Part shown: positions 3,529 to 52,366 of the stretch, piece after piece
How the letters are laid out: the number at the start of each line of letters is the position of its first letter
Numbering within the stretch: position 1 is the stretch's first letter
Assembly (NCBI GenBank): GCA_030651765.1
Contig: JAUSBY010000003.1
Span: 62,001 to 126,000, forward strand
DNA: 64,000 nt
From: Coriobacteriia bacterium
GTDB lineage: Bacteria; Actinomycetota; Coriobacteriia; Anaerosomatales; Anaerosomataceae
Reading direction: 5' to 3'
The notes under the pieces: generated by a model
Database searches by the model: none
What the model was told of the DNA's origin: nothing
What the model saw: only the letters and a program-made list of their open reading frames with translations
Translations under genes and position numbers: made by a program

Positions 3529-4419
3529 TCATCGGACCTCCGGTCCGTCGGAATACCGTCCTACAAGCAGTGCCTTGGCGTATGCGGCGTGCAGCGCGCC
3601 GATCCCGCGGCACAGGTGCAGCGTCACTACGAAGCCGAGCAGCCCCACAGCCATCACCAGCGGTATCGCCCAGCCCTCGATCATGTAGCCGTAGCCGCCC
3701 CACTGGAGCAGCGGATAGTCGGTGAACAGCTGCGCGACCGGGTAGAGCACGCCGGTCGCCGATAGCGTCACCGCGACGGTCACGAGCGTGAAGTAGATGA
3801 TGCCGAGCGGAAGCTGCAGGATCATGTACAGGATGCTCGTCCACGTGCGCCAGTCGGTGAACCACTGCTTGATACGTGAGGGGATGTCGCCTTCCGGCAC
3901 GCCGGGACGCGGACGCCGCGGCATGCGTACGCCGAGAAGCGCCTCAACGAGCCGACCTTCCGCCAGCGAGATAGCGCGCACCACCGCGAAGAAGAGCAGC
4001 AGCACCAGTACGCCGACACCGATGGGTAGCAGTCCAAGCCCGGTTGGCAGCAGCGAAGCTACCAGCGTGAAGTAGACGATGCCCGTCACGAGCGAGAGCA
4101 CGAGGTAGAAGAACGCCCCGTAGCTGCGCGGGTCCGCCACTACGCCAAAGAACCGTGCGATCGCGCCGGTCTGCGCCGGTCGCTCCGGCGTCTTGAGCGC
4201 TCTGGCGACCGTGATCTCCGTCTCGAGGTACGCCGCCGCGACCTCATCAGGCGTGCCGTATCGCTCGACGACCGCCGCGAAGCAGTCGGCGTCGTCCTCA
4301 GCACACCCGGCGAGCTCGGCGCGCAGATACTCCTCGGCATCGTAGAGGGCGTCCTGTACGAGTGCGGGGTCGGCGCCGCCGAACGCGGCCCTGAGTGAGT
4401 GCAGATACTGTTCGATCAT
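3529..4419 (-). CDS. HAAS-domain membrane sensor protein
   Basis: A 296-aa protein. The first roughly 80 residues are the HAAS-type helical domain (YLHSLR..., VQDALYDAEEYLRAEL, VVERYGTPDEVAAAYLETE), typically encoded next to PadR regulators. The rest holds a duplicated membrane unit: each half has paired hydrophobic helices containing GIVYFTLVASLLPTGL or GIIYFTLVTVAVTLSATG, the pattern of the bacterial putative-sensor domain. The ATG at 4419 overlaps the TGA of the PadR gene (ATGA). The pair is expected to act as a PadR-linked sensing module, but the signal is unknown. Confidence 0.82.
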   Translation of the reverse strand: MIEQYLHSLRAAFGGADPALVQDALYDAEEYLRAELAGCAEDDADCFAAVVERYGTPDEVAAAYLETEITVARALKTPERPAQTGAIARFFGVVADPRSYGAFFYLVLSLVTGIVYFTLVASLLPTGLGLLPIGVGVLVLLLFFAVVRAISLAEGRLVEALLGVRMPRRPRPGVPEGDIPSRIKQWFTDWRTWTSILYMILQLPLGIIYFTLVTVAVTLSATGVLYPVAQLFTDYPLLQWGGYGYMIEGWAIPLVMAVGLLGFVVTLHLCRGIGALHAAYAKALLVGRYSDGPEVR

Positions 4420-4928: not shown

Positions 4929-5396
4929 GTGGACGCCGATGCGACATACATGGCCATGGCCCTCGAGCAAGCCCGGCTCGCTGCCGCAGAAGGCGAGGTG
5001 CCGATTGGCGCCGTGCTTGTGTGCGATGGTTCGGTCGTGGCCCGCAGCCGTAATGCGCGCGAGTCGGCGGTCGACCCCACCGCGCATGCCGAGATGATCG
5101 CCATCCGTGAGGGGGCCGGGCGTCTCGGCAGATGGCGGCTGTCGGGGTGTACGCTGTACGTGACGCTCGAGCCCTGTCCGATGTGCGCTGGCGCGCTTGT
5201 CAACGCGCGCATCGACAGGCTCGTCTACGGCGCGGCCGATCCCAAGGCCGGCGCCACCGGCACGCTGTATGATCTCTCGGACGACCCGCGGCTCAACCAT
5301 CGGTTCGAGGTGACGGCCGGGGTGCTCGAAGCCGAGTGCGGGGAGATACTGAAGGAGTTCTTCAGGGGGCTGCGCGCGGGGCGCGCCGGGGAGTGA
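4929..5396 (+). CDS. tadA: tRNA-specific adenosine deaminase
   Basis: A 155-aa zinc deaminase that converts A34 to inosine in tRNA-Arg. Zinc and catalytic motifs are complete: HAEM (His and Glu near residues 53-55) and PCPMCAGA (around 83). EGEVPIGAVLV and NHRFEV are also typical of TadA rather than of free-base deaminases. Start GTG at 4929 is the best in-frame option although no clear ribosome site precedes it; an ATG eight codons on is possible. Transcribed divergently from the padR operon and followed 11 bases later by the DUF2207 gene. Confidence 0.95.
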   Translation: MDADATYMAMALEQARLAAAEGEVPIGAVLVCDGSVVARSRNARESAVDPTAHAEMIAIREGAGRLGRWRLSGCTLYVTLEPCPMCAGALVNARIDRLVYGAADPKAGATGTLYDLSDDPRLNHRFEVTAGVLEAECGEILKEFFRGLRAGRAGE

Positions 5397-5407
5397 GGGG
5401 ACCCGTG

Positions 5408-7258
5408 ATGAGACGCAGGGCAACACGGCTCACGCTTGCGATCGGACTCGCGACCGTTCTTGCGGTCCTCGTTGCGGCGCCCGCATATGCCAAGTCCTAC
5501 CGGATGACGCAGGTAGATATCCTGGCCGAGGTCGCTCCGGACGGCTCGATGCTCGTGACCGAGCAGCGCACGTTCGACTTCTCGGGTGACTACACGTTCG
5601 CGTACTGGGAGCTCGACACGTCGCGCGCGGACCGGATCGAGATACTCGGCGTGGCGGGGCCTGAAGGTCCGTACTCGCCGACGACCGACTACGACGCCCG
5701 GGACACACGTCCACCGCAGACCTACCAGGTCACCGACCTCGGGCATGCTCTGGACGTGCGCGCGTTCTTCCGTGCCGGGGACGTGGCGCACACGATCACG
5801 CTTCAGTACCGCGTCTTTGGCGCCGCGAAGCGCTGGCAGGACACGTCCGAGCTCTACTGGCAGTTCGTCGGCGACCGGTGGGAGCTCGATTCGGGCAACG
5901 TGACCGTCCACATCGTGCTGCCGTCTGGTGTCACCCGCGAGGACGTGAAGGCCTGGGCGCACGGGCCGCTCACGGGCGACGTCGTGCTCAACGACGATGG
6001 CACGGTGGACCTCATCGTCGATCGCGTACCGACGGGCGTCTTCGTGGAGGGACGCGTCGTGTTCCCCGCCGAGGCGCTCTCCTCGGCGCCGCAGGTGTCC
6101 GAGTCGATGCTCGAGACGATCCTTGCTGCCGAGGACCGGCTCGCGCGTGACGCGAACACCGAACGCACCATCGCCCGTGCGAGCACCGGCGGCTCGATGG
6201 GCGTTGCGGCCCTCCTGCCGCTCGGCGCCCTCGGCTGGGCGTTCACGTACTGGCGAAAGCACGGCAAGGAGTACAAGCCGCAGTTCCAGGGTGAGTACTA
6301 CCGCGATTTGCCGTCCGACCTCACGCCGGGCCAGGTCTCGGCGCTCATGAACATGGGCGCGCCGGACGACAAGGCGATCAGCGCGACGATCATGGACCTC
6401 ATCGACCGCGGCGTGATCGCGATCGAGCGCGTCTACGTGGACAAGAAGGTCATGCTCGGCCTGGGCAGCAAGAACGTGGAGACGTACAAGCTCACGCGCC
6501 GCCGCGACAAGGAACAGGGGCTCAGCCCGAGCGAGAAGTCGCTGCTCAGCCTGGTGTTCAGCACGATCGCCAATGCCGATGAGGTCACGATGGAGGACCT
6601 GAAGGCTCTCGTGAAGAAGCAGAGCAAGGCTGATGCGTGGGGTTCGGGCATCACGACGTTCAAGGCGAAGGTCGTCGAGGAGATCCAGCAGCGCGGTCTG
6701 CTCGAGGAGAAGGGCGGCAACGCGGTCGGCGGTTTCATCGCGCTCGGCGTAATCACGGCTCTGCTCGGTATGGTGCCCCTGCTAGCCGTGGGAAACGGCT
6801 ACCTGCTGCCCTGGACGATCCTCATCGGCGCCGCGGTGATCGTGCTCGGTGCGAACATGAAGCGCCGGAGCCCGGGGGCCGCCGAGCTCGCCGCGCAGTA
6901 TCGGGCCGTGCGCAACTACCTCAAGGACTTCGGCCGGATGCAGGAGAAGCCACCCACCTCCGTGGTGCTATGGCGCCACTTCCTCACGCTTGCGGTCGTC
7001 TTCGGCATCGCCGACGAGGTCGTCAAGCACCTGCACGTGCGCGTGCCCGAAGTCATGGCGGACCCGGTCATGGGGACGTGGGCGTGGATGGCCGCGCCGG
7101 GCACCGACGGCATGACGCCGATGAGCGCGCTCTCTACGGGGATGGTGTCCGTCTCGAGCGTCGCCACATCGAACAACTCGTCCTCCTCCGGTAGTGGTGG
7201 CGGGTTCTCGGGCGGCGGAGGCGGCGGCGGAGGGGGCGGCGGTGGCGGTGCCGGATAA
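5408..7258 (+). CDS. DUF2207-family membrane protein
   Basis: A 616-aa protein with a signal peptide (to about residue 28, PAYA/KSY), a large extracytoplasmic beta domain (VDILAEVAPDGSMLVTEQ), a membrane helix near residue 260-285, a cytoplasmic region with helical bundles, a hydrophobic pair around 440-490 (FIALGVITALLG...LLPWTILIGAAVIV), and a C terminus of serine followed by a long glycine run. This architecture, including the GGGFSGGGGGG tail, is that of DUF2207 proteins of unknown function. Start ATG 5408 has GAGGGGA upstream; a GTG immediately before it is an alternative. The glycine-codon run also supplies the ribosome site for the next gene. Confidence 0.85.
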   Translation: MRRRATRLTLAIGLATVLAVLVAAPAYAKSYRMTQVDILAEVAPDGSMLVTEQRTFDFSGDYTFAYWELDTSRADRIEILGVAGPEGPYSPTTDYDARDTRPPQTYQVTDLGHALDVRAFFRAGDVAHTITLQYRVFGAAKRWQDTSELYWQFVGDRWELDSGNVTVHIVLPSGVTREDVKAWAHGPLTGDVVLNDDGTVDLIVDRVPTGVFVEGRVVFPAEALSSAPQVSESMLETILAAEDRLARDANTERTIARASTGGSMGVAALLPLGALGWAFTYWRKHGKEYKPQFQGEYYRDLPSDLTPGQVSALMNMGAPDDKAISATIMDLIDRGVIAIERVYVDKKVMLGLGSKNVETYKLTRRRDKEQGLSPSEKSLLSLVFSTIANADEVTMEDLKALVKKQSKADAWGSGITTFKAKVVEEIQQRGLLEEKGGNAVGGFIALGVITALLGMVPLLAVGNGYLLPWTILIGAAVIVLGANMKRRSPGAAELAAQYRAVRNYLKDFGRMQEKPPTSVVLWRHFLTLAVVFGIADEVVKHLHVRVPEVMADPVMGTWAWMAAPGTDGMTPMSALSTGMVSVSSVATSNNSSSSGSGGGFSGGGGGGGGGGGGGAG

Positions 7259-48012: not shown

Positions 48013-48030
48013 TCAGAAGGAGGGATGATC

Positions 48031-49980
48031 ATGGTAGCCAGGCTCAGAAGGACGATAGCGCTGTCTCTGTCGGCGGTGCTGGTGCTGACGTTTGCGGGGC
48101 TCCCGGCTGCGCAAGCGGTCACGGATCCCGCGCCGCTGGATGTACGCGCAGCAGGGTGGTCTCTACAGGACTCGGGAGTCAGTGTTCCCCTTGGCAGCGT
48201 GTACTTCATCGACGAGAGCACCGGTTGGATGACCGGAGGCAACGGCACGCTCCGCAAGACCACGAACGGTGGTGAGAGTTGGTCCGCACGGAACACGGGA
48301 ACATCGGTGGCGCTTTCGGGCGTGTTCTTTCTGGATGCGAACACCGGATGGATCGTGGGTGACGGGGGCACCATCCTGAAGTCGATCGACGGAGGCGTCA
48401 GCTGGACGCCGCAGACATCGGGCACGAGCAAGAACCTGTGGGGGGTTCAGTTCGTCGACGAGAACACCGGCTGGGCGGTGGGCATCCCCGGCGGGTACGG
48501 TCCTCCGCCTCCCGGTGAGTTCAGCCCTATTCTGCGGACCACCGATGGCGGTGAGACGTGGACGAATCACGGTGACATAGCGCACCAGAGCTTGCAGACC
48601 ATGTTCTTCATCGACGCGACCACCGGTTGGGCAGCTGGCAACGGCACGCTCATCCGCTCGACCGACGGGGGCGTCACCTGGGAAGACATCAGGCCGGACG
48701 ACACATGGCGACTGTACTGGGCACCCCATTTCGTGGATGCCAACACCGGTTGGGTCGTCGGTGACAACGGACTCATCATGCGCACCACCGACGGTGGCGG
48801 CAACTGGGAGTTCCAGGACTCGGGTGTCTCTACTGAGCTCATCGACGTGTACTTTGTGGATGCCAACACCGGCTGGGTGTCGGGCAACGGCGGGCTCATC
48901 CTCGCCACGGACGATGGTGGCGACACGTGGGTGGTCCAGCACTACGGTGGAACGCGGTACCTGCGCGATCTGTACTTCGTGGGCGCGAACACGGGCTGGG
49001 GAGTAGGTGCCGGCGGACATGTGGTCGCTTACCGGTGGCCGCTTCCTCCGGTTGAGTCGCTGGAAGGCGAGGACCGTTACGCCACCGCTGTGGATGTGTC
49101 GCGGCGGGCCTTCCCGATCGGCGCGGAGACCGTCGTGATCGCCACGGGCGCCAACTGGCCCGATGCACTCGGCGGCACAGCACTGGCGGGAGCATTGAAT
49201 GGACCCGTCCTGCTTGTCGGTACAGACGTCATTCCGTCTGTCGTGACGCAGGAGATAGACCGTCTTGGGGTGACGAACGCAATCATCCTCGGCGGCACAG
49301 TGGCGGTCGGAGATGCGGTCGAGGGTGCTCTCGAAGCGATGCTCGGCGAGAGCAACGTTGAGCGCATCAAGGGAGCTGACAGGTACGAGACTGCCAACGC
49401 CGTTGCGCTGCGCGTGATCGCGGAGCTCGGCGTGGACTACGACGGTATGGCGTTCGTGGCCACCGGCGGCGACTTCCCCGACGCCCTGGCGGCGGCGCCG
49501 CTTGCCGCCAGACAGCACTGGCCGCTGTTTCTCGCTCACCCTGTGACCGGACTCTCCGCTGGTACGAAGGCCGCCATGGCCGACGTGACCGATGCCATCG
49601 TGCTCGGTGGAACCGCGGCCGTCTCATCGGTCACGGCGACTCAACTTGCGACGGAGCTGTCCGGCACCGTTGAGCGCTTGTGGGGCGAGGACCGCTATGC
49701 CACCGCTGTGGCGGTGGCAACGTACGCCGTTGACGAGCAGGGCCACGATTGGGATCGCGTAGGCATCACCACCGGCATGAACTTCCCGGACGCGCTTGCG
49801 GGTGGTGTGGCCCAGGGCAAGATGAACTCCGTCATGCTGCTCACACGACCGACGCTGCTCGATGCGTACACAGCCGCGGCGCTCGCGGCGCACAAGGCGG
49901 AGATCGATAGTGTCACGTTCTTTGGTGGTGCGAACGCGGTGACGCAAGGCGTTCGAGATGAGGTCGCCGCGGTCTTGGAG
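48031..49980 (+). CDS. surface protein with YCF48 propeller and three CWB2 domains
   Basis: A 649-650-aa protein ending at the TAG at 49981. A signal peptide (to about 30, AQA) is followed by seven to eight YCF48 repeats (DxNTGWxVGxxG...TTDGGxTW, residues 45-330), then three cell-wall-binding type 2 domains starting at GEDRYATAVDVSRR, ADRYETANAVALR and EDRYATAVAVATY, each with an x-NWPDALxG or FPDALA motif and ILGG..AV. CWB2 triplets anchor S-layer-like proteins to wall polymers. ATG 48031 has GGAGG 7 bases upstream. Propeller plus CWB2 is a surface adhesin-like layout; its ligand is unknown. Confidence 0.93.
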
Positions 49981-50202
49981 TAGACACCGGAAGGCGAAAC
50001 AGCACACGCCGTTGGTTCTGCGACGGAAAAGGGTGAGGTCCGTCGGCTCTGCGCTGCGCAGGAGGCGTCCCACGGGATGAGCTCCGCCAGCCGCTTGAGA
50101 ATGACCCGCGCTCGGTGGCAGCCGATGGCTTCGCCGGGACGATCGAGGGGAGTGGGTACGTACATAGGTATCGTTCACATGATGTCACCAAAGGAGTCCG
50201 AC

Positions 50203-50514
50203 ATGGCGCGCGAATCGACCTGGCGACCCCACAGCACCCACGGCAAGCTGTCGCCCGCCCGGGAAGCGGCGCTTCCTGAGTCGGCGTTCGCGTTCCCGTC
50301 ACACCGAATGCTACCGCTGACCGATGAGGGTTCTGTGCGGGGCGCTATCGAGAACTTCGCGGAGGTCGAGGGCGCATCTGACGAAGACCACGAGATCGCC
50401 TTTGCCAACATCCAGCGCGCCGCTGGTTTCTATCGCGTGCCCATGACCGAGACGGACTGGCGGCAGCTCGGTACCCGCCAGGTGAAGCCGGGCTACGAGC
50501 GCGAGCGCACGTAG
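50203..50514 (+). CDS. DUF6582-like small protein
   Basis: A 103-aa soluble protein. LPESAFAFPSHRMLPLTDEGSVRGAIENFAEV is the conserved core of a family (DUF6582-like) seen in phage and chromosomal contexts, of unknown role. AAGGAG is 6 bases before the ATG. Its TAG stop (50512-50514) lies in the same frame as the CWB2 fragment that follows at once, so readthrough would make a fused protein. Confidence 0.72.
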   Translation: MARESTWRPHSTHGKLSPAREAALPESAFAFPSHRMLPLTDEGSVRGAIENFAEVEGASDEDHEIAFANIQRAAGFYRVPMTETDWRQLGTRQVKPGYERERT

Positions 50515-51144
50515 CCTCCCTACGCGACCGCTGATGCGGTAGCCGCCAAGGTCGCAGCCGTCCTTGGCGATGCGTGGGACGGCACGGCGTTCGTTGCCAC
50601 CGGCGACAACTTCCCCGATGCGCTTGCGGTAGCGCCCGTGGCCGCGGCGACCTACTCACCGATCCTCCTGGTCAGGACGCAGGCGCCTCTGCCTCCCGCT
50701 ATCGACGACGTCTTCGAGTACCTGCCGATCTGGGACACGTGGATCGCCGGCGGGACCGACGTCGTGAGCGAGGGCGTTGAGGAGGCTATCGAAGCGTGGC
50801 ACAAGCACCACCTCGGCGCGGACAGCCCGGCGACCCGTATGGCCGGTGACGACCGCTACGAAACCTCTGCTAGGGTCATGCAGAGTGCGGTTTCTATGGG
50901 CTGGCTCGACCTGGACACATTGGGTGTCGCTACGGGCCTCAACTTCCCCGACGCGCTCGGCGGCGGTGCGGCGCTCGGCACGTACGGCAGCCCGCTCGTA
51001 CTCACGCGGCCGGACTCGCTGCCTCCCAAGGTGGCCGATGCGATCATGTATCGCGCTCACGAGATCGGGCGTGTCGACATCTTCGGCGGTTCCGACGTCG
51101 TCTCAAACGGTGTGCGCACCACGATCTCCGGGCTGCTGCCGTAG
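50515..51144 (+). pseudogene. 5'-truncated CWB2 protein fragment
   Basis: About 209 codons of CWB2 sequence with no start or signal peptide. It opens abruptly inside a repeat at YATADAVAAKVAAVLG, directly after the DUF6582-like stop codon. Two CWB2 units remain (FVATGDNFPDALAVAP; GDDRYETSARVM...GVATGLNFPDALGG) and end normally (RTTISGLLP). A GTG at 50638 is unsupported by a ribosome site. Best read as the tail of a surface protein whose front was lost by recombination, unless the TAG is read through. Confidence 0.7.
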
Positions 51145-51176
51145 GCATCCGTCCGGGCAACGTACTGCAGGCAGTC

Positions 51177-51203
51177 GAAGGGCCCCGCGCTGCGGGGCCC
51201 TTC
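51177..51203 (+). terminator. hairpin terminator after the CWB2 fragment
   Basis: Perfect 12-bp stem GAAGGGCCCCGC / GCGGGGCCCTTC with a 3-nt loop. No T-run follows, but the stem is very stable. Confidence 0.75.
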
Positions 51204-51325
51204 GCGCACGGTACAGTTGTTCGTGGTGCACCCGCGCCATGTGCGATGCTAAAGGCCCTACATTCCGGGGTGTCGGTTGCAGCGCGGGAGGCAAAGAAGC
51301 CCCCAGGCAGAGATGTGAGGTCACA

Positions 51326-52366
51326 GTGAAGATCGGACTCGTCGGCTTCGCCGGCTCGGGCAAGACCACGGTGTTCAACACGATGACCGGCCTCGACGTG
51401 CCGGTCGGCTACGGCGGCGAGGTACGGCTTGGAACGGTGCGCGTGCCCGACGAGCGCATCGACCGGCTCTCGGCTATCTTCCACCCGAAGAAGACGATCT
51501 ACGCCGAGATGACCTTCTGCGACGTGCCCGGTGAGCACGGGGCGGAGCGCACGGGTCTGTCGTCGCGGACGCTGTCGACGATCCGGGAGCAAGAGGCGCT
51601 CGCGCTCGTCTTGCGCGACTTTGAGGACCCGGCGGCCGGGGGCGACGCGAACCCCCTCCGGGACCTGAACGCCTTCTCGGACGAGTGTGCCCTGGCCGAC
51701 CTGGCGCTCGTCGAGGGACTGCTCACACGCGCGCGCAAGGAGAACCTGCCCCCGGCCGACCGCGATCGCCTCGAGTTCATGCGGGGCGTCCTTGAGGACG
51801 GTCGCCCCCTGCGCACGCTGCCATCCGACCAACTCGACCGTGACGCCCTGAGGAGCTACCAACTCCTGACGGACCGCCCGTTGCTCGTCGTCGTCAATCG
51901 CGACGAGGACCGGGCCGCTGCCTCGCTGCCGGACGATCTGGCGGGGCGGATCGACGAACTCGGTGCAGCCGGTCTGGTGCTCTCGGCAAGCGTCGAGGCC
52001 GAGATCGCCGCGCTCGATCCCGACGACCAATCGGCCTTCCTCCAGGACCTCGGTCTCACCGAGCCCGCGCTCTCACGCTTCATCCGGAGCGCTTATGGCC
52101 TCCTGGACCTCATCAGCTTCTTCACCATGGGTGAGGACGAGGTGCGCGCGTGGACGATCACGCGCGGGATGACGGCACGCAAAGCTGCCGGACGGATCCA
52201 CTCCGACCTCGAGCGCGGCTTCATCCGTGCCGAGGTCATGCCCTACGCGGTGTTCATGGAGTACGGCAGCGAGCAGGCCGTGAAAGCGGCCGGGCGTTTT
52301 CAGACGGAGGGTAAAGAGTACATCGTGGCCGACGGCGACATCCTGAACATCCGCTTCAACGTGTAG
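51326..52366 (+). CDS. YchF/Obg-like P-loop GTPase with C-terminal TGS-like domain
   Basis: A 346-aa protein. G1 is GFAGSGKTTVFNTMTG, G3 is DVPGEHG, and the G4 position reads NRDED. The C-terminal 80 residues (LISFFTMGEDEVRAWTITRGMTARKAAGRIHSDLERGFIRAEVM) match the YchF C-terminal domain, including FFTxGxxExRAWTI and HSDxxxGFIRAEV. G1 differs from the GxPNVGKST of true YchF, so this is a variant paralogue. GTG 51326 has GAGG 5 bases upstream. Role perhaps ribosome-linked, by family. Confidence 0.85.
   Translation: MKIGLVGFAGSGKTTVFNTMTGLDVPVGYGGEVRLGTVRVPDERIDRLSAIFHPKKTIYAEMTFCDVPGEHGAERTGLSSRTLSTIREQEALALVLRDFEDPAAGGDANPLRDLNAFSDECALADLALVEGLLTRARKENLPPADRDRLEFMRGVLEDGRPLRTLPSDQLDRDALRSYQLLTDRPLLVVVNRDEDRAAASLPDDLAGRIDELGAAGLVLSASVEAEIAALDPDDQSAFLQDLGLTEPALSRFIRSAYGLLDLISFFTMGEDEVRAWTITRGMTARKAAGRIHSDLERGFIRAEVMPYAVFMEYGSEQAVKAAGRFQTEGKEYIVADGDILNIRFNV

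Follow-up and report, generated by a model that had tools for sequence, protein, structure and literature searches.

A start-less CWB2 fragment in frame with a DUF6582-like gene in a Coriobacteriia bacterium: very probably a young pseudogene beheaded by a deletion

The window, i.e. the whole 64,000-nucleotide stretch of Coriobacteriia bacterium DNA that was analyzed, contains at positions 50203-51144 an arrangement that raises the question of how a CWB2 sequence came to lie open behind the stop codon of a short DUF6582-like gene, in the frame of that gene and without a start of its own. Translation of the region gave 103 amino acids, a TAG (50512-50514), 209 codons beginning with PPYATADAVAA, and a second TAG at 51142-51144, which confirmed the initial annotation of a TAG followed directly by about 200 in-frame CWB2 codons. 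The earliest in-frame start within the fragment is a GTG at position 50638, 41 codons in. The 209-residue part matched CW_binding_2 (PF04122) in two stretches with a Pfam score of 105.5 bits, which is far beyond chance. The score of the 103-residue part against PF20223 (DUF6582) was weak (24.9 bits, under the cut-off of 27.3), whereas its orthologue in the sister genome reached 33.8 bits and passed that cut-off. The fragment had been described as two intact CWB2 units; one unit is indeed complete, but the other is truncated, and the initial 80 bp or so of the fragment, which belong to the truncated unit, differ in origin from the remainder.

Sixty-one genomes were searched, and the DUF6582 gene was found in 10 of them, including the genome under study, and CWB2 matches in 51. 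CWB2 is very abundant in some of these genomes, with at least 53 matches in the genome under study and at least 51 in its sister, whereas several members of the same family (G003, G007, G013, G018, G022, and G025) gave no CWB2 matches. Among the genomes compared, only the sister (G001, a contig of which matches the metagenome-assembled genome UBA2272) belongs to the same genus, and a contig scan for relatives revealed none closer. Comparison with its contig C4 allowed the locus to be divided as follows.

48025-49983, plus strand: intact upstream neighbor, a YCF48/BNR-repeat protein of 652 aa with three C-terminal CWB2 stretches and an orthologue in the sister
50203-50514, plus strand: intact DUF6582-like gene, 103 aa, ending with the TAG at 50512-50514; the sister orthologue, 93% identical, shares both its end and this TAG
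50515-50520, plus strand: putative deletion junction (between 50518 and 50520); the left side matches the sister's DNA after the DUF6582 gene, and the right side is a CWB2 unit from YAT onward
50520-50601, plus strand: patch of standard CWB2 sequence; three full-length relatives have a different sequence in the orthologous unit 2
50602-51144, plus strand: putative CWB2 gene remnant of 180 codons (end of unit 2, unit 3, and native stop), sharing 91% of its residues with the sister
51145-51206, plus strand: conserved 3′ flank of the CWB2 gene; the alignment with the sister extends to 51206
51326-52366, plus strand: downstream neighbor, a YchF-type GTPase gene

The same junction, which the initial annotation had proposed to look for in sister genomes, was not present in G001. 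There, the DUF6582 gene (C4:931296-931604) ends at positions 3606-3608 of locus L031, and 80 bases after this TAG an intact CWB2 gene begins instead (L031 3689-5671). It encodes 661 aa, in which Pfam recognizes three CWB2 stretches, and its last 180 codons correspond to the window fragment. From the DUF6582 stop onward, the sequence reads TAGCCTCG in the sister versus TAGCCTCC in the window. BLASTN paired window positions 50118-50518 with L031 3212-3612 and positions 50583-51206 with L031 5113-5736, so that the alignment breaks at 50518/3612 and picks up again in unit 2. With the right breakpoint set at a shared CTACGC, 1428 bp of the sister sequence (L031 3613-5040) are missing from the window, including the leader, the N-terminus, the middle domain, the first CWB2 unit, and the beginning of the second. 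Since two further relatives are also full-length (G009, with 674 codons in an open frame, and G053, whose gene lies within an open frame of 893 codons), the headless state of the window is the derived one. The sister also carries, between its 661-aa CWB2 gene and the YchF-type GTPase gene, an extra CWB2 gene on the opposite strand (positions 4998-7129 of locus L070, which spans this region in UBA2272; open frame of 699 codons) that is absent from the window (51206-51228).

The missing head was not found elsewhere in the genome under study, the assembly of which is 97.4% complete with 1.1% contamination. A DNA search with the sister's head returned eight matches, none better than E 0.05, and a protein search returned only paralogues, the best with 29% identity over its length and the others over the CWB2 part only. 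The head is missing in comparison with the sister and absent elsewhere in the assembly, the DUF6582 stop is unchanged, and the fragment shows no decay. As for a pseudogene produced by deletion, an intact orthologue (661 aa, on contig C4 of G001) stands at the same place and the lost part has no copy elsewhere in the genome; as for a working CWB2 protein, the fragment has neither a start codon nor a signal peptide at its N-terminus, and it contains two Pfam stretches, the first of them truncated, versus three tandem units in the sister. We consider it very likely that the fragment is a young pseudogene, namely what a deletion of about 1.43 kb left of a secreted CWB2 gene, its 3′ third. This deletion would have taken place in this lineage, with its left breakpoint 4-5 bases past the DUF6582 stop, the DUF6582 gene itself being intact, and its right breakpoint within the second CWB2 unit. 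The patch of about 80 bp from another CWB2 unit lies at the junction, and the remnant would make no protein. The frame common to the DUF6582 gene and the fragment is then probably due to chance, a one-in-three coincidence. An earlier suggestion that a fresh recombination had joined two genes holds insofar as a recent rearrangement, the deletion, appears to have beheaded the adjacent CWB2 gene; however, no two genes were fused, because the sister's DUF6582 gene stops at this very TAG and is not followed in frame by CWB2 sequence.

The age of the loss was assessed on the 180 codons that align cleanly between the window and the sister, of which 8.9% differ in the encoded residue. For these codons, the NG86 method gave a dN of 0.056 and a dS of 0.388 (0.047 and 0.766, respectively, by YN00). 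The dN/dS ratio, proposed earlier as a check for purifying selection, was therefore low (0.14), and the NG86 values of 0.20 for DUF6582 and 0.18 for the CWB2 part of the intact neighbor were similar. With G009 as the outgroup, two residue changes fell on the window branch, eight on the sister branch, and six were unpolarized, while with G053 the respective numbers were two, six, and eight. The window branch hence carries no excess of residue changes, which is compatible with a recent loss. In a neutral simulation of the stretch (4000 runs per rate), two or fewer residue changes occurred in 1.7% of the runs at 0.02 changes per site and in none at 0.03, and when up to eight changes were allowed, the limit was 0.05 changes per site (0.4% of the runs), as compared with a dS of 0.39 (NG86) for the pair. 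Under neutrality, more than two residue changes are thus expected as a rule above about 0.02-0.03 changes per site, and more than eight at about 0.05 or more. Judging from these substitution patterns, either the loss would be recent relative to the split of the two genomes or the remnant would still be under selection, and a recent loss would call for no new function. The head was probably lost recently, which would explain why the fragment has not decayed, and the purifying signal may predate the deletion. As grounds for refuting its reading, the initial annotation had coupled a normal full-length gene in sister strains with decay of the fragment; the former was found at this place in the sister, but the fragment is undecayed.

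The patch at positions 50520-50601 is not accounted for by a simple deletion and counts against the explanation that we prefer. Its sequence is that of a standard CWB2 unit and differs from the orthologous unit 2 common to G001, G009, and G053 (YDAL.ADGRPFSN.AFVARGD). A DNA search of its own genome found no near-identical source, and as the best match was 79% over 71 bp, no recent donor is visible. The best match in a protein search of 28 genomes, found in G001, shared 68% of residues, and comparison with the sister's extra downstream CWB2 gene gave short matches only. Either another CWB2 unit had converted this sequence before the deletion took place, or a CWB2 template outside the assembly served to repair the break. 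We think that the patch is the one real oddity of the locus, yet one within the behavior of a repeat family.

The absence of a donor for the patch, together with the numerous CWB2 units per genome, could also suggest that the junction is an assembly artefact and that the species has an intact gene. This is, however, very improbable: the 258-kb contig has the junction in its middle, inspection by eye revealed at the junction no long shared word able to mislead an assembler, and the head is missing from all contigs.

Slightly less probable still is that the remnant is translated alone as a small CWB2 protein, through reinitiation or from the GTG at 50638, with which an open reading frame of 168 aa begins. 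The lack of decay on the window branch would suit such a product, but it would have no signal peptide, the earliest start would cut deeper into unit 2, a scan of positions 49950-51400 for the sigma-70 consensus showed no promoter-like site, and the recent loss already explains the missing decay. A comparably slim chance attaches to the remnant still being made, by readthrough of a structured TAG context or by reinitiation, and maintained by selection, either as a DUF6582-CWB2 protein in the cytoplasm or as a short CWB2 protein.

The single shared frame, open for 209 codons, and the low dN/dS ratio of the CWB2 part would also be expected if the TAG were read through. Furthermore, the 89 nt from the TAG onward (50512-50600) fold at -47.1 kcal/mol (z -3.15), a value as low as which was reached by eight of 431 nearby stretches and one of 193 CWB2 unit heads, both sets possibly including the stretch itself; we give this fold little weight, because of the high GC content of the stretch and because it came from one look among several. 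Against readthrough, the purifying signal can be older than the deletion, and TAG is an ordinary stop in the window, where it ends 18 of the 45 long coding-like open reading frames picked by a simple composition rule (TGA, 22; TAA, 5). No match to PylS over the cut-off was found in the genome under study, and the two weak matches there are of a kind also present in 13 of 14 control genomes, with one over the cut-off. In nine relatives, the DUF6582 stop is TAG six times, TGA twice, and TAA once, and the frame past it runs for 9 to 134 codons, with CWB2 in none of the nine (first 60 residues judged). Finally, the DUF6582 part begins with MARESTWRPHSTHGK, in which no signal peptide is visible by eye, so a readthrough fusion would not be exported. 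Display of a DUF6582-CWB2 fusion on the cell surface by readthrough of the TAG, as envisaged in the initial annotation, is therefore the least probable of these readings.

A pseudogene formed by deletion would matter little beyond bookkeeping, as an instance in which an uncultured actinobacterial lineage lost one gene of its large CWB2 family and probably shuffled CWB2 units. It also serves as a caution that an in-frame join across a stop codon with a low dN/dS need not mean readthrough. A literature search found nothing on DUF6582, and the accessible parts of the literature on CWB2, S-layers, and pseudogenes held nothing bearing on this locus. Surface proteins characterized by CWB2 (PF04122) include the cell wall proteins of Clostridioides difficile. 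Like these, the fragment matches PF04122, as do its full-length relatives, and the intact gene of the sister has three units; unlike them, the fragment lacks both a start and a signal peptide and has just a single complete unit, and is thus not a working member. In multi-copy surface-protein families, 5′-truncated pseudogenes arise by deletion. The fragment differs from these in the patch of about 80 bp from another CWB2 unit at the junction and in a frame that continues from the upstream gene, and it resembles them in that its head is gone, its native stop and 3′ flank are retained, and the orthologue in the sister is intact and in place.
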